Below, in pieces: positions 710 through 7,726 of a DNA stretch of 30,619 bases. The notes below the pieces were generated by a model, which was given only the letters and a program-made list of their open reading frames with translations, made no database searches and was not told the origin of the DNA. The position numbers and the translations under genes are program-made. Source of the DNA: a bacterium. Its GTDB lineage: Bacteria > Joyebacterota > Joyebacteria > Joyebacterales > Joyebacteraceae. The stretch lies in contig JALGZK010000023.1 of the NCBI GenBank assembly GCA_025774935.1, forward strand, positions 1-30,619. The letters run 5' to 3'. Every line of letters starts with the position of its first letter. Positions within the stretch are counted from its first letter, which is position 1.

Positions 710-1129
710 CTACCACCCCGATTCGGTGAACTCGCCGTTCCCAGGGTAGCGCTGCCCCGCGTCGGCGCCCTCCTGAGTCCAGATGATCTTCGCGTTGGCC
801 GGCGCCCAGTCCCCTCTCTCGGTCGCCGTCACGACGAAGCCCTCGGCGTCCATGCTCGAGAGCTCGAACGTGAAGTAGTCGGCGTTGTCCACGTCGTCCT
901 GGGCGAGCCACTTCGCGAACGTGCCGTTCTCGTACGTCCTGCTCTTGAGGAAGTAGATCCGGCCGCCGGCGACAACGGCGTCGATCACCGCGTACGCCTC
1001 AGTCTTCTTCCCCGAGCGGATGTAGCTCATGTAGTAAGGCACCGCGATGCCGCTCATGATCGTGATGATCACGAGGACGATCGTTAGCTCGAACATCGTG
1101 AAGCCCCGTCGGTTCATTCGGATACGCAT
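710..1129 (-). CDS. Type IV pilin / major pseudopilin
   Basis: This 139-residue protein opens with the short basic leader MRIRMNRRG, cleaved by prepilin peptidase before Phe10. The helix FTMFELTIVLVIITIMSGIAVP follows, with Glu at mature position 5. The linking segment (YYMSYIRSGKKTEAYAVIDAV) matches the start of the conserved PilA/GspG alpha-1 helix, and a small C-terminal beta domain follows. The size and short leader fit a major subunit. There is no obvious C-terminal disulphide pair of the PilA kind. The gene sits 26 bp after the platform-protein gene and is preceded by AAGGGG. The family is secure. Whether it builds a surface pilus or a type II secretion pseudopilus cannot be decided here, because no secretin or gspC/L/M gene is in view. 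Confidence 0.85.
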   Translation of the reverse strand: MRIRMNRRGFTMFELTIVLVIITIMSGIAVPYYMSYIRSGKKTEAYAVIDAVVAGGRIYFLKSRTYENGTFAKWLAQDDVDNADYFTFELSSMDAEGFVVTATERGDWAPANAKIIWTQEGADAGQRYPGNGEFTESGW

Positions 1130-1155: not shown

Positions 1156-2379
1156 CTACCCGTGGATCGCCGAGCTCATGTTGAAGATCGGGAGGAACGT
1201 CGCGATGACCACCAGTCCGACGATGCCGCCGATGACCACCATCAGGAGAGGCTCGATCAGGGACGCCAGTCCGTTGATCGCCGTCTCCACCTGCTCGTCG
1301 TAGAAGTCGGCCACCTCCGACAGCATCTGGCCGAGCGTTCCGGTCTCTTCTCCTGTCGAGACCATCTGAACGACGATCTCGGGAAACACCTGCGCTTCGC
1401 CGAAGCCGACGGAGAGTTTCGACCCGCGCGAGACCGTCTCCCCGATCTCGGTGACCGCCTTCTCAACGATGGCGTTCGACGCGCTGCCCGCCGCGAGCTC
1501 GAGCGCGGACAGCACGGGGATCCCGCTGTCGACCAGGATTCCGAGGGTGCGCATGAACTTCGCCAGCACGAGCTTCTTCACTATCCTCCCGAAGATCGGG
1601 ATCTTGAGCTTCTTGTCGTCGATCGCGAGCTTCCCCGCCGGGTTCTTCTTGAGCATCTTGAAGCCCACGACGACGCCGACCATGAGGAGGATCACGACCC
1701 ACAGGTACTGGGTCAGGAGCCTGCTCGAGGCGATCACGATCTGCGTGAGAGCCGGCAGCTCCTGGTCGAGCCCCTCGTAGACCTTTCCCATCATCGGGAC
1801 AACCTTGAGAAAGAGGACGAGACCGGCGATCCCGACGAAGCTCAGGACGAAGACCGGATACGACATCGCCGACTTGACCTTGCGCTTGATCGACTCGGTC
1901 CGCTCGAGATAGACCGACAGCTGCCTCATGATTGCGTCGAGGTCGCCGCTCTCCTCGCCCGACCTGATGAGGCTCACGTAGAAGCTCGAGAAGACCTTCG
2001 GGTGCTTCGACATCGCGCGCGACAGGCGGTCCCCGCCCTCGATGTCCTCCGCGACCTTCACGAGGACGTCGGCGAGGACCTGGTTCTTCTCGTCCCGCGC
2101 GAGCGCCCGGAGCGACCGGATGAGCGGCAGCCCCGCGTGGAGCATGGTCGCGAGCTGCCTCGTCGAGAGCGCGACGGCGCCCTTCGGTACCCCCCTGCTC
2201 AGGAGCGACGCACCGTCCAAGAGCTTCCCGCCGACCTTCTCGCCGACCTCCCGGATCGAGAGCACGATGAGACCTTCCGCGTGCAGAACGTCCACCGCGG
2301 CGTCCATCGTCTCGGCGCTGACCACGTCCGAGCGCTGGTTGCCTGCTGTGTTCTTCGCGACGTATTCGAACCGCGCCAA
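1156..2379 (-). CDS. pilC: Inner-membrane platform protein PilC/GspF
   Basis: This 407-residue polytopic protein recruits the assembly ATPase and helps extract pilins from the inner membrane. The N-terminus (ARFEYVAKNTAGN) is the usual GspF/PilC opening. It is followed by two related cytoplasmic T2SSF domains, with hallmark segments LATMLHAGLPLIRSLRAL near residue 75 and FMRTLGILVDSGIPVLSALE near residue 276. Three hydrophobic segments are seen near residues 175-195, 225-240 and 380-400. The length is normal for the family. The gene lies between pilB and the pilin gene, with 21 bp and 26 bp gaps, so co-transcription is likely. The symbol could equally be gspF, because the two families are not separable by eye. 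Confidence 0.92.
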   Translation of the reverse strand: MARFEYVAKNTAGNQRSDVVSAETMDAAVDVLHAEGLIVLSIREVGEKVGGKLLDGASLLSRGVPKGAVALSTRQLATMLHAGLPLIRSLRALARDEKNQVLADVLVKVAEDIEGGDRLSRAMSKHPKVFSSFYVSLIRSGEESGDLDAIMRQLSVYLERTESIKRKVKSAMSYPVFVLSFVGIAGLVLFLKVVPMMGKVYEGLDQELPALTQIVIASSRLLTQYLWVVILLMVGVVVGFKMLKKNPAGKLAIDDKKLKIPIFGRIVKKLVLAKFMRTLGILVDSGIPVLSALELAAGSASNAIVEKAVTEIGETVSRGSKLSVGFGEAQVFPEIVVQMVSTGEETGTLGQMLSEVADFYDEQVETAINGLASLIEPLLMVVIGGIVGLVVIATFLPIFNMSSAIHG

Positions 2380-2400: not shown

Positions 2401-4179
2401 CTAGCCGGACTCGGCGGCGATGGCCAGTACCTCTTCGACGGTCGTGACGCCGTCGATCACCTTCTGGATCGCGCTGTCCTTGAGGGTTACGAGTCCCATC
2501 TCGAGCGCCCGCGACCGAATCTGCTCTGCGGACGCGTTCTGGAGCGCGAGCTGTGCGATCTCCGGCGAGATCTCTAGGAGCTCGTACAGGCCCACCCTGC
2601 CCTTGTACCCGCGGCCCTTGCACTGCTTGCAGCCGGCCCCGTGGTAGAACGTGACTCCCTTGAACCTCTCTTCGCCGAGCGCCCTCAGGGCCACCGGGTC
2701 GGGCTCGTAGGGCTCCTTGCACTCCGAGCAGATCCGGCGGACGAGCCTCTGCGCCATGACGACGTGCGCGGCGCTCGTGACCAGATACGATTCGATCCCG
2801 ATGTCAATGAGTCGCGTCAGCGTCGCCGCGGAGTCGTTCGCGTGCACCGTCGAGAGCACGAGGTGCCCCGTAAGCGCGGCGCGGACCGCAAGCTCCGCGG
2901 TCTCGAGATCACGGATCTCGCCGATCATGATGATGTCCGGGTCCTGCCGCATGAGCGCCCTCAGGCCAGCGGCGAAGGTCATGCCTGCCTTCGCGTTGAT
3001 GTTCACCTGGTTCATGCGCCCGAGGTGATACTCGACAGGATCCTCGAGGGTGGTGATGTTCTTGCCGACACGGTCGAGCTCGGAGAGCCCGGCGTAGAGC
3101 GACGTCGACTTGCCGGATCCGGTAGGTCCGCTCACGAGCACCATTCCCCACGGCTTCCGGAGACCGGCTCTGAAGCTCTTGAGCGTGTCCGGCTCGAAGC
3201 CCAGCTTCTCGATGTCCGTCGCGCCGCCCGACTTCCTGAGGAGACGGAGCGCCATCTTCTCGCCGTAGACCGTCGGGAGACTCGAGACACGGACGTCAAC
3301 CTCGTTCCCCTCGAACCTCGCCGTGAAGCGCCCGTCGAGAGGGATCCGCCTCTCGGCCACGTCCATGTCGGAGAGGATCTTGATCCTGACCATGATCGCG
3401 TCCCGGAACTGCTTCGGGGGCGTGAGCGTGTCGTAGAGAACGCCGTCGATCCTGAACCGTACGACGACCTTGTCGACCAGGGGCTCGATGTGGACGTCGG
3501 TCGCTCCGTCGGCGATCGCCTGCGCCATGATGAGATCGACGAGACGGACGATCGGCGCGTCCTCGGCCTTGTTCCTGAGTTCCTGCTCGTCGATCTCCTC
3601 GAGCGCTGTCACGGCGGCGCCGAGCTCGAGCTCGGCCCCCTCGATCGCTTCTTCGAAGTGCTGGCCGGCGGTCGCGCTCTGGTACGCCCTCGCGATCGCC
3701 CCCTCGATGTCCTCCCTGCACCCCACCTCGATCCTGAGCTCGCACTTCGTCGCGACCCTCACGTCATCGATTGCGAGGAGGTCGAGCGGGTCGACCATGG
3801 CGACCGAGAGGGTGCCCCCCTCCTTCGCGAACGCGAAGACGCGGTGACGCTTCGCCATCTGTTCGGGAATCAGGAGGATGATCTCCGGATCGGCGTCGAG
3901 CGCACGCGACATGTCGAAGACGTCGAGGTCGAGCTGACGCGCGAGCGCCCGCACGATCTCGGTCTCCTCGATCACGCCCGCGTTCACGAGTGCCTCGCCG
4001 ATCCTCTCGCCGGTCGAGCGCTGCCGCTCGAGCGCCGCCGTGAGGTCGGCGTCCGTGATCGCGCCATCCTCGATCAGGAGTTCACCGAAACGCTTCGTGC
4101 CGAACGTTAGTTTGTCCGGCACGAAGCTCGGATGCTCCTGAGGATGACCGGTGTCGTCCCAGGTCTCCTCGTTCTTCAT
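2401..4179 (-). CDS. pilB: Pilus/secretion assembly ATPase PilB/GspE
   Basis: This cytoplasmic hexameric ATPase of 592 residues powers pilin polymerisation. Residues about 28-170 form an MshEN/T2SSE N-terminal domain (FGELLIEDGAITDADLTAAL), the type of module that binds cyclic-di-GMP or nucleotide in some relatives. The C-terminal motor has Walker A GPTGSGKS at 351-358, an Asp box around EDPVEY at 379-384, Walker B DPDIIMIGE at 413-421 and a His box with TGHLVLSTVHAND. A tetracysteine zinc knuckle (C484, C487, C517, C520) is present, as in PilB and GspE. The start is the ATG at 4179. The gene follows the pilX-like gene after an 85-bp gap that contains a strong hairpin. The symbol follows the sigma-54/minor-pilin context; gspE is the alternative. 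Confidence 0.93.
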   Translation of the reverse strand: MKNEETWDDTGHPQEHPSFVPDKLTFGTKRFGELLIEDGAITDADLTAALERQRSTGERIGEALVNAGVIEETEIVRALARQLDLDVFDMSRALDADPEIILLIPEQMAKRHRVFAFAKEGGTLSVAMVDPLDLLAIDDVRVATKCELRIEVGCREDIEGAIARAYQSATAGQHFEEAIEGAELELGAAVTALEEIDEQELRNKAEDAPIVRLVDLIMAQAIADGATDVHIEPLVDKVVVRFRIDGVLYDTLTPPKQFRDAIMVRIKILSDMDVAERRIPLDGRFTARFEGNEVDVRVSSLPTVYGEKMALRLLRKSGGATDIEKLGFEPDTLKSFRAGLRKPWGMVLVSGPTGSGKSTSLYAGLSELDRVGKNITTLEDPVEYHLGRMNQVNINAKAGMTFAAGLRALMRQDPDIIMIGEIRDLETAELAVRAALTGHLVLSTVHANDSAATLTRLIDIGIESYLVTSAAHVVMAQRLVRRICSECKEPYEPDPVALRALGEERFKGVTFYHGAGCKQCKGRGYKGRVGLYELLEISPEIAQLALQNASAEQIRSRALEMGLVTLKDSAIQKVIDGVTTVEEVLAIAAESG

Positions 4180-4264: not shown

Positions 4265-5794
4265 CTAGTCTGTCGCCGGGAGCTCGGTCCAGCGGACCAC
4301 GCTCACGTCCCGGGTCTTCGGGAAGAACGGCGGTGCCAGCTTGGCCAGCCTCGGGTCGTAGTAGTACTTCCTGTGGAACCCGTAGAACTTGTCGCCCTTC
4401 TTCTCGTTGACCTTCTTGGCCTTCTTCATGATCACGGCGCCGTAGATCGTGAGGTCACCGCGTTCGCCGGCGTCCTTCACCTTCTCCGCCTCGAGGCCTT
4501 CCTTGCACGACATGATCGCCCCGTGGATCTCCACGTCATCCTTGTTCGCGTCCACGTACGCGATCTTGATCTTCTTGATCGCGACGAGACCCAGGAGATC
4601 GGTGCAGTCCGGGTCGGGTCCCTTGCCCGGGGTTGAGCTCTCGTAGAGGACGTCGCCGGAGAGGTAGATCTCCTTCTCGCTCCCGATCGTGATCTGGCCT
4701 CGGAGCGTCCCTTCCATCCAGATCTTGTCTTTGAACCAGATGACACCGTTCGAGACGGTCGAGAGGGTGATGTCGGTCCACTCCGTGACGGAGCTCTCGT
4801 CGCCGACCTTGAGCTTGTCCCTGTCGGCGACACGGTAGCTCATCGTCCCGAGCATCCCGTTCCTTCCGAGGATGACCTGATAGGTCCGGTGTTCGATCTT
4901 CTTGCCGTTCGTATCCTTGATCCCCTTTGGGATCTTGCCGAGGTAGACGCCACCGCTCTTCGCCAGCGTCGCCATCGTCGCCGTGAGCTCCTTGTCCTTC
5001 GGAAGAGGGACCCAGTCGGCGTTGACCTCGTAGCCCTTCGCGAAGGTCGGACGGCTTCCGTGCTTGATTTCGATCTTGTCCTTCCACGTCGTGACCTTGC
5101 CCGCGAAGTAAGGGTCGCCCTTAATCCGGAACTTGTCGTTGACGTGCACACGTCCGATCAGGCGATCCTCCGAGTACATGTAGAGGCTGTCGTCCTCGGT
5201 GTACTCGGGGTCCTCGTCCGGGTCCGCCTGCCCCTGCGGCTCGGGCTCGGAGACCACGCCGTAGAGATCCTTCGTCTCGTTTGCGAAGAAGAGATACTTG
5301 GCGAAGGAATCGACCGCCATTCTCGCCTTGATCTGCCGCGTCATGCCGTTCACGGTTCCCGTGGCGACGACGTCGTACGTCGTGTCGTCCGGCGGGTTCG
5401 AGCCGTTCCGGGTCATCTGTACGGTGTACTCACCCGGGCCGACACGGACCTGCTGGAACTCCAGGCTCTCGGGGTAGATCCCCTCGCCCTGCTCCTTGGC
5501 CTTGCCGTTCTTGTCGACCTTCGCTCCGTACTTGGCGAGCTGGTCGAGCACCTTCTGAGTACGCTCGAGGCCGGCCTCGGCGGCGTAGAACGCCTGCGCC
5601 TCGTCGAGGCCCACTGAGACGATGTCGCTCTCGGCCGTGCCGAGCGTCATTATCGCGACGCCGACCAGGATCACCGACGTCATGATGACCATGACCGCGA
5701 TGAGCGAGATGCCTCGCTCGTCTCCGCTCCTGGCGTACACCCTGCTCACGAGCGTCATAAGCGCTGTACGCGCTCGCTCAATGCACGCGTTCAT
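4265..5794 (-). CDS. PilX/GspK-like large minor pilin with a DUF4900-like region
   Basis: This 509-residue protein is the first gene of the operon and has a near-perfect ribosome binding site (TAAGGAGG, 7 nt before the ATG). The leader ends DERG at residue 28 and is followed by the helix ISLIAVMVIMTSVILVGVAI and the PilX-type sequence AQAFYAAEAGLERTQ. Mature position 5 is Ala instead of Glu, as in GspK-type tip pseudopilins, which lack that residue. The remaining roughly 400 residues include FFANETKDLYG followed by a block around RLIGRVHVNDKFRIKGDPYF, which resembles the DUF4900 region found beside pilin genes (from memory, not searched). The C-terminus is Lys-rich and beta-like. The likely role is a pilus-tip or priming subunit, perhaps adhesive. 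The pilin N-terminus is certain; the tip role is inferred. Confidence 0.75.
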   Translation of the reverse strand: MNACIERARTALMTLVSRVYARSGDERGISLIAVMVIMTSVILVGVAIMTLGTAESDIVSVGLDEAQAFYAAEAGLERTQKVLDQLAKYGAKVDKNGKAKEQGEGIYPESLEFQQVRVGPGEYTVQMTRNGSNPPDDTTYDVVATGTVNGMTRQIKARMAVDSFAKYLFFANETKDLYGVVSEPEPQGQADPDEDPEYTEDDSLYMYSEDRLIGRVHVNDKFRIKGDPYFAGKVTTWKDKIEIKHGSRPTFAKGYEVNADWVPLPKDKELTATMATLAKSGGVYLGKIPKGIKDTNGKKIEHRTYQVILGRNGMLGTMSYRVADRDKLKVGDESSVTEWTDITLSTVSNGVIWFKDKIWMEGTLRGQITIGSEKEIYLSGDVLYESSTPGKGPDPDCTDLLGLVAIKKIKIAYVDANKDDVEIHGAIMSCKEGLEAEKVKDAGERGDLTIYGAVIMKKAKKVNEKKGDKFYGFHRKYYYDPRLAKLAPPFFPKTRDVSVVRWTELPATD

Positions 5795-5884
5795 CGTCCC
5801 GCCTCCTTAGCTGGCGGCAACCCCTGTTGATCTTCTCAGTCGCGCCTCGGAGCGGCCCCCCGGCCACTCTTGCTCCCCGTAGAA

Positions 5885-5900
5885 AGCAAGTTCCATGCCA
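5885..5900 (-). promoter_or_regulatory. Sigma-54 (-24/-12) promoter of the pilus operon
   Basis: Read on the minus strand the site is TGGCATGGAACTTGCT, differing from the RpoN consensus TGGCAC-N5-TTGCW only at the sixth base. The GG and GC cores are correctly spaced. Transcription would start near 5873, leaving a 5' UTR of about 80 nt before the pilX-like ATG at 5794. RpoN with the NtrC-type activator PilR drives pilin genes in Pseudomonas and Myxococcus, so the position makes biological sense. The 5795-6109 gap holds no gene; it contains this site, a second similar site and upstream dyads. Confidence 0.7.
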
Positions 5901-5951
5901 CGGGGGCGGCTTCTGAGGCCGACTCGCGGGTTGTTCCCACGGGCTGGGAAG

Positions 5952-5967
5952 AGCGATTTCCGTGCCA
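5952..5967 (-). promoter_or_regulatory. Second sigma-54-like promoter element, same orientation
   Basis: The minus strand reads TGGCACGGAAATCGCT, with a perfect TGGCAC -24 element and one mismatch (TCGC for TTGC) in the -12 element, at correct spacing. It lies 67 bp upstream of the better site. It could be an alternative start or a weak holoenzyme binding site. Two such matches on the same strand in one 315-bp gap are unlikely to be chance, but this one alone would be tentative. Confidence 0.5.
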
Positions 5968-6023
5968 AGTGATGAACGCTCAAACGTTGACCAAATGGGG
6001 GGCAGAGCAGGATAGCGTGACAC

Positions 6024-6080
6024 GTGCAGAACGCACAGAGAGTGCAATCGCGCAGGAGCGCTGTGCAGATGGTGCACAGC
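6024..6080. promoter_or_regulatory. Paired dyads, candidate enhancer (UAS) for the sigma-54 promoters
   Basis: The stronger element is a perfect inverted repeat at 6060-6080: GCTGTGCA, 5 nt, TGCACAGC. A weaker one at 6024-6036 reads GTGC, 5 nt, GCAC. Both share GTGCAGA on the left (6024-6030 and 6063-6069) and GCACAG on the right, with centres about 40 bp apart. They sit 117-184 bp upstream of the two -12 elements, a typical distance for NtrC/PilR-type activators acting by looping. Because the stronger dyad starts just 30 bp after the lnt stop, it could alternatively be an lnt terminator stem, but no T-run follows it. Confidence 0.5.
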
Positions 6081-6109
6081 TTAAGGACCGTGTCAAGCAC
6101 AGGTCAGAA

Positions 6110-7726
6110 TCAGGGCAGGTGTGGGGATTGCCTTGCAGAGCGGAAGGCGATCGACGCCGCGACCAGGAGACCGGCGAGGACGAGCATCGTCCACGCGAAC
6201 ACGTCGCCGTGTCGCGAGTAGAACGTCGTCTCCTCGACAACGGGGAGGTCGTACACGATCAAGGTGCGTTCGAAGATCGGTGTTCTCTCGAGCACGCGCC
6301 CGTACGGATCGACGACGAGCGAGACGCCGCTGTTGGCGCTCCTCGCCAGGCTCCGGCGGTTCTCGATGGACCGCATCACCGCCATCGACGCGTGCTGGAA
6401 CGGCATCGAGGTCCGGCCGTACCAGACGTCGTTCGTGACGTTCACGAGGAGCTCCGCGCCCCCCGCGACGAACTGCCGCACGAGCCTCGGGAAGATCGAC
6501 TCGTAGCAGATGAGCACAGAGAACTTCGCCGCGTGCAGCTCGAAGACGACCCGCTCCTCCCCCGGGGCGAAGTCCGCCTCGCCGAAGTCGACCTTCCTGA
6601 GGACGGGAATCAGGGTCGCTCCCGGGATGACCTCGCCGAACGGCACGAGATGGATCTTGTCGTACTTGCCCGCGTGCGACCCGTCCGGCATCACGAGGAG
6701 CACCGAGTTGTGGACCACGTGGTCGCCCGGCTCGTTCGAGAGGTACTCGACGTCAGGCATCCCTGTGAGGACCGGGCAGCCCGCGTCCACCGCGGCTTCG
6801 ACGACGCGGCGGTAGTTGGTCTCGTCACGGAGGAGGTAGCTCGGCGCCGCCGTCTCGGGCCAGACGACGAGGTCGGGTTCGTGGCGACCCGCCTCGGCCG
6901 ACAGCTCCCCCAGGACGTCGAAGCTCACGTGCTTGTAGTCCGCGTCCCACTTCTTCTTCCCCTCGATGTTCGGCTGGAGGACCGCGACCCTGATCGTCCG
7001 CTCGGGGTACCCGCGGCTCATTACGAGCGTTCCGTGCGCGGCCGGCAAGACGAGAGCGAGCACCAGCCCGACCACAACGGCTCGCCGGCGCCTCGCCCCG
7101 CCCTCGAGGAGTTCGAGCACGAGCGCGCTCACAAGCGCCATCCAGAACGACACCCCGAGGACGCCCGTGACCGACGCGAACTGAACCACCCGGGGGAAGA
7201 CGACGCCCGCGTACCCGAGATCGCCCCACGTCAGTCCCATGATGAAGAGCGACCGGAGCTGCTCGCAGGCGACCCAGAGGATGGGAAGCGCCAGCCACGA
7301 CGGGAATGCGGTCCGCCTCGTGACGAGCACGGCTGCCGCCGAGAAGAGCCCCCAGTAGGACGACTCGAGGAGCACGAGGAGCACGAGCGGCCCGCTCATG
7401 ACGATCGGGTTGTCCATCTCGTTCGCGGAGAGCAGGACGAGCCAGTAGAGGAGCGGCACGAAGAACGAGATCCCCGCGACGAGCCCCGGACGGAACGCGC
7501 TCCAGAACCCCGTCACACGGGTGTGCCGGAGGACGTAGAAGAACGGCACGAGCGCCAAGAACGCCGCCGGCAGGAAGTCGATCGGGGGAAACGCAAGCGA
7601 GAGCGCCGCCCCGCTCGCAGCGAGGAGGGCGTACTGCCTCGCGCGTGGAATCGTCTCGTGTCCCCTCACCGGTCTCGTCCCCCGTCTCCTCACCAGTCTC
7701 CTCACCTGTCTCCTCGCCCGACGCAC
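6110..7726 (-). CDS. lnt: Apolipoprotein N-acyltransferase
   Basis: Lnt adds the third acyl chain to the N-terminal Cys of lipoproteins in the inner membrane, the last step of maturation in diderms. The N-terminal half has about six to eight hydrophobic helices (residues about 32-235). The periplasmic nitrilase-fold domain follows, with the catalytic triad Glu291 (VVWPETAAPS), Lys357 (GKYDKIHLVPFGE) and Cys407 (VLICYES). The motif NVTNDVWYG is also present. At 538 residues it is full length. The start is uncertain: GTG at 7726 lies 3 bp after the phosphoglycerate mutase stop, but an in-frame 12-bp tandem repeat supplies several further GTG codons, each with an SD-like GAGGAG just upstream. 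The Arg-rich N-terminus (RRQVRRLVRRRG) is the translated repeat and may not all be made. Confidence 0.93.
   Translation of the reverse strand: MRRARRQVRRLVRRRGTRPVRGHETIPRARQYALLAASGAALSLAFPPIDFLPAAFLALVPFFYVLRHTRVTGFWSAFRPGLVAGISFFVPLLYWLVLLSANEMDNPIVMSGPLVLLVLLESSYWGLFSAAAVLVTRRTAFPSWLALPILWVACEQLRSLFIMGLTWGDLGYAGVVFPRVVQFASVTGVLGVSFWMALVSALVLELLEGGARRRRAVVVGLVLALVLPAAHGTLVMSRGYPERTIRVAVLQPNIEGKKKWDADYKHVSFDVLGELSAEAGRHEPDLVVWPETAAPSYLLRDETNYRRVVEAAVDAGCPVLTGMPDVEYLSNEPGDHVVHNSVLLVMPDGSHAGKYDKIHLVPFGEVIPGATLIPVLRKVDFGEADFAPGEERVVFELHAAKFSVLICYESIFPRLVRQFVAGGAELLVNVTNDVWYGRTSMPFQHASMAVMRSIENRRSLARSANSGVSLVVDPYGRVLERTPIFERTLIVYDLPVVEETTFYSRHGDVFAWTMLVLAGLLVAASIAFRSARQSPHLP
7661..7720 (-). repeat. 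12-bp tandem repeat (5 units) across the lnt start
   Basis: Five consecutive imperfect 12-bp units on the minus strand (consensus GGTGAGGAGACN) fill exactly 60 bp. In frame they encode a four-residue Arg-rich repeat (RR-L/Q-V). Each good unit contains GAGGAGA followed 5-6 nt later by the GTG of the next unit, so the repeat is an array of ribosome binding site plus start codon. Adding or losing a unit keeps the frame and would change only the number of start sites and the length of the basic N-terminus. Confidence 0.75.

Follow-up and report, generated by a model that had tools for sequence, protein, structure and literature searches.

In the case of NtrC at glnALG, TGC-containing dyads play two parts, enhancing a sigma-54 promoter and, where they cover the sigma-70 promoter from which the regulator itself is transcribed, repressing it; the NtrC sites are of the TGCAC type, with a longer gap between the arms. 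In Pseudomonas, it is established that PilS-PilR controls pilA via sigma-54, and such control has also been reported in Geobacter and others (PMC6058289). Surveys link sigma-54 broadly to flagella and pili (PMC3162934). Across 16 phyla, a survey from 2025 saw the strongest PilA enrichment in the Beta-, followed by the Gammaproteobacteria (PMC12316311). We found no paper on a PilR/sigma-54 circuit in a metagenome or candidate phylum in a partial literature library.

We analyzed a window of 30,619 bp (the whole stretch of DNA under study) together with the rest of its genome and the genomes of relatives. Similar to NtrC at glnALG, TGC-containing dyads are found at the sigma-54 promoter and over the regulator's own promoter, but with TTGC-N5-GCAA as the core and with pili as the targets. 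A six-transmembrane PilS-type kinase, an NtrC-type PilR, a sigma-54 promoter, and a pilus target are shared with the PilS-PilR/RpoN-pilA system of P. aeruginosa (PMC6058289). In contrast to that system, the lineage lies outside those studied, the sigma-54 sites precede pilX-pilB and pilB-pilT operons instead of a lone pilA, comEA lies within the pilSR operon, and the putative operator is YGC-N5-GCR instead of the TGT-N11-AGA and GTCT elements of Pseudomonas (PMC6058289). Taken as a whole, the locus is very probably explained by an RpoN layout with an upstream activator, most likely PilR, at a pilX-pilB-pilC-pilin operon.

The pilX-like ORF (5794-4265, minus strand) starts with an ATG at 5794, with TAAGGAGG immediately 5' of it, and the gap of 315 bp that the preliminary description placed ahead of this gene corresponds to 5795-6109, bounded by the end of lnt at 6110. 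The PilX_N score of 24.6 bits is below the curated cut-off of 25.5 bits, and the protein is therefore called "PilX-like" only. A simple scan of the gap found no sigma-70-type promoter, and the gap sequence had no match in the plasmid collection. The features are listed in the table.

Table. Coordinates of the operon, its neighbor, and the predicted control elements in the window
Feature	Position	Strand	Evidence
Type IV pilin-like protein	710-1129	-	N_methyl and ComP_DUS exceed cut-off
PilC/GspF-type platform protein	1156-2379	-	T2SSF 202.7 bits
PilB/GspE-type assembly ATPase	2401-4179	-	T2SSE 430 bits, MshEN
PilX-like protein, operon gene 1	4265-5794	-	PilX_N 24.6 bits; relatives throughout family
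Proximal sigma-54 element (predicted), TGGCATGGAACTTGCT	5885-5900	-	Top sigma-54 score in window; kept in 15/15 genomes with the gap sequenced
Distal sigma-54 element (predicted), TGGCACGGAAATCGCT	5952-5967	-	Second-best score; kept in G001, absent from other genera
Upstream activator element B (candidate), GTGC-AGAAC-GCAC; core TGCAGAACGCA at 6025-6035	6024-6036		Counterparts in G001, G008, and G009
Upstream dyad A (possible second activator site), GCTGTGCA-GATGG-TGCACAGC; perfect arms of 8 bp	6060-6080		Sequence; imperfect counterpart only in G001, same place
lnt (apolipoprotein N-acyltransferase), upstream neighbor, outside operon	6110-7693	-	CN_hydrolase and LNT_N; same neighbor in relatives

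Both of the -24/-12 elements described earlier were recovered on the coding (minus) strand at 5900-5885 and 5967-5952, 67 bp apart, and the gap carries the TGGCAC/T-N5-TTGC arrangement, with invariant GG and GC, 5' of a gene on the same strand. An approximate RpoN weight matrix ranks them as the two best matches in the window, with 17.4 bits for the proximal element and 14.6 bits for the distal element vs. 9.9 bits for the third-best site. Matrix scoring covered the window, while the genome-wide counts are of exact patterns: in the genome (3.24 Mb), the strict pattern TGGCAYGNNNNTYGCW has 13 matches and its reversed control has 3, with the window pair accounting for 2 of the 13. The one-mismatch pattern is not significant alone, as 33 of 100 window shuffles give at least two matches, and lnt and pilX are transcribed in the same direction; the elements might thus be chance matches in a G+C-rich gap, with the operon read from elsewhere, either by read-through from lnt or from an unrecognized promoter. 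Such an origin is highly improbable, since the position and sequence of the proximal site are constant in 15 of 15 genomes across gaps that are otherwise poorly alignable, and a similar site lies ahead of a second pilus operon in 13 of 13 genomes. It is this conservation in relatives, and not the base count of the window, that places the observation above chance and argues firmly for the gap as a sigma-54 promoter region. Transcript starts are predicted near 5874 for the proximal element and near 5941 for the distal element.

The proximal sequence TGGCATG-N4-TTGC(A/T) precedes the pilX-like gene in all 15 genomes, from seven genera, in which the lnt-pilX gap is present in the assembly (the gap of G002 was left out of this count). 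The distal element is missing outside the genus in the gap comparison across relatives; hence, of the expectation that both elements would be conserved, only the proximal part held for the family, and the distal part held within the genus. In the relatives, one to three tandem pilX-like genes lie ahead of pilB (L056:7874-13426, which is G001; L065-L072). The sister species G001 has three, and each copy comes with a sigma-54-like element, which looks like duplication of promoter plus gene as one module. In the G001 copy adjoining pilB, both elements are present at a spacing of 66 bp; the proximal one is identical to that of the window at all 16 bases, and the distal one at 15 of 16. Only the proximal element might be in use, with the distal one a decaying duplicate; this reading, to which we give somewhat less than an even chance, would fit the absence of the distal element outside the genus and its weaker -12 part (TCGCT), but not the 15 distal bases retained in G001, nor the other two tandem G001 copies, in which the distal element is kept (in one of them with a poor -12, TAGCT) and a deletion took the -12 part of the proximal element. 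Because these two copies retain only the distal element, two start sites are plausible, and because this element is restricted to the genus, the idea of two start sites holds only there.

Two dyads upstream had been placed 117-184 bp from the sigma-54 elements. The dyads exist, and this distance fits only the proximal element, from which they lie ~124-180 bp upstream; they are 57-113 bp upstream of the distal element. Only the dyad at 6024-6036 is conserved beyond the genus. On the coding strand, element B reads TGCGTTCTGCA at -135, and its counterparts are TGCATTCTGCG in G001 (-134), TGCATTCTGCA in G008 (-134), and CGCATTCTGCA in G009 (-132). The position of the element is thus constant to within a few base pairs (-132 to -135) across three genera, such a match was obtained in 0 of 2000 shuffled sets, and the 120 bp separating it from the promoter in G008 and G009 show no better alignment than shuffled sequence. 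Dyads of this kind are YGC-ACAAC-GCA in genus g3, at -114 to -126, and CGC-AATTY-GCG in genus g4, where three of five genomes carry it, near -105; these dyads, element B, and its counterparts all fit YGC-N5-GCR. The gaps of four relatives had no such dyad in the expected range, nor did pilX copies 1 and 2 of G001. From its conservation, the dyad at 6024-6036 is a good candidate for the activator element.

An NtrC-type regulator in the lineage had been anticipated from the promoter layout, with rpoN and a PilS/PilR-type pair as the things to look for in the genome, and all were found, which together with the conserved proximal element agrees with the proposed RpoN layout. The rpoN gene lies on contig C1 (TIGR02395, 419 bits vs. 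a cut-off of 277), and RpoN is present in 13 of 13 family genomes searched. A profile search found seven strong Sigma54_activat proteins in the genome; three have a GAFTGA or GSFTGA loop (GSFTGA in PilR), two have GAFTDA, and two have the degenerate GTFNGA and GGEFGA. The two NtrC-like proteins with degenerate loops (L078:8012-9493 and L079:6647-8044) may no longer work with sigma-54, and the activators on C32 and at C22:64135 were set aside as candidates for their degenerate GAFTGA loops. On C22, a comEA-like gene, a kinase, and a REC-AAA-Fis regulator (PF00072, PF00158, and PF02954) stand in a row, and the kinase contains the PilS transmembrane domain (6TM_PilS, PF25323; 40.7 bits vs. a cut-off of 27). 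A close relative of this kinase occurs in every family genome searched, and the PilR beside it is 77-93% identical in relatives where complete, with a nearly invariant recognition region, AAEILGINPSTLYRKLQRYGM.

The region ahead of comEA-pilS-pilR is available in 11 genomes, and each of them has TGCAAAACGCA or the complement of it as part of a TTGC-N5-GCAA dyad. This dyad overlaps the promoter of the operon and, in the present genome, sits between TTTGCA and TAGATT, a possible -35 and -10. NtrC blocks the promoter of its own operon, and by analogy a regulator bound at this operator would block the promoter, i.e., self-repression. The first gene of the operon encodes a ComEA-like helix-hairpin-helix protein (DNA uptake; L076:9679-10116), a hint that pili and competence may be connected. 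The canonical pilus cluster on C28, with pilB, pilT, pilC, pilins, and further genes, lies 3' of a REC-HD-GYP gene, with TGGCATGTGCCTTGCA between them. Each of the 13 family genomes searched has a sigma-54 site directly 5' of this pilB and, 118-152 bp upstream of that site, the invariant TGCAnGATGCGA; in the genome of the window, this putative PilR element is located within the 3'-terminal coding part of the HD-GYP gene. The REC-HD-GYP response regulator immediately preceding this operon (L080:6343-7494) is a putative c-di-GMP phosphodiesterase, and it was rejected as the activator, being without an AAA domain. The same contig has an array (L081:6486-11287) of seven small HTH regulator genes (mostly 190 aa, XRE-like by eye) that are related and arranged in tandem, and the array adjoins pilX-like and pilin-like genes.

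Operator-like dyads are conserved at pilS and pilB, and the match in the window is weak: a matrix built from the pilS and pilB sites gives p = 0.24 on the window dyad, whose half-sites are GTGC/GCAC and not TTGC/GCAA. The same matrix gives p = 0.002-0.06 in genus g3, and the combined value is 0.009-0.025 with one genome per genus. Given this weak match and six other strong Sigma54_activat proteins in the genome, the sigma-54 promoter might be real and yet served by an NtrC-type protein other than PilR. We consider this unlikely, because no conserved operator connects any of the others with pili and two have degenerate GAFTGA loops, while the regulator on C27 adjoins the sigma-54 promoter of a metal-resistance-like gene, where the upstream region is without a TGC-N5-GCR dyad. 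From the conserved operators, PilR is probably the activator of the window operon.

Elsewhere, diguanylate cyclase genes on C18 (L048 and L049) are preceded by two strong sigma-54 sites, which suggests that sigma-54 may also feed c-di-GMP signaling. Also considered as a PilR target was a TTGC-N5-GCAT dyad upstream of the C18 sigma-54 site; it was discarded, as a sigma-54-like sequence overlaps it and relatives outside the genus did not show it. A conserved locus (L187-L194) has at least two strong sigma-54 sites in several relatives, surrounding a carbon-nitrogen-hydrolase-like gene and a gene starting MLNCLLHSR.

In the proposed mechanism, RpoN polymerase would bind the proximal -24/-12 element as a closed complex and, in this genus, the distal element as well. 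A phosphorylated NtrC-type activator, most likely the PilR of the comEA-pilS-pilR operon, would sit at the upstream dyads, mainly the one at 6024-6036 (~135 bp 5' of the proximal element), and would presumably loop over and open the closed complex. The same PilR appears to activate the canonical pilB-pilT-pilC operon, a separate locus, and to keep its own transcription in check. A wider scheme, which in our estimate has an even chance of being right, is a family-wide PilSR regulon, in which one PilR recognizing YGC-N5-GCR would activate two pilus operons via sigma-54 and repress comEA-pilS-pilR, and in which one genus would have gained a second sigma-54 start in tandem and duplicated promoter-pilX modules.

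The kind of control is textbook and the lineage is new; a sigma-54 pilus promoter across a family of uncultured bacteria is well supported. The duplicated promoters are a series made in nature and provide material for studying tandem sigma-54 starts. The comparison suggests a PilSR-RpoN-pilus link in this lineage with an operator that differs from that of Pseudomonas, and it offers a testable transcription circuit for pili in an uncultured lineage, with a putative sigma factor, sensor, activator, operator, and targets.
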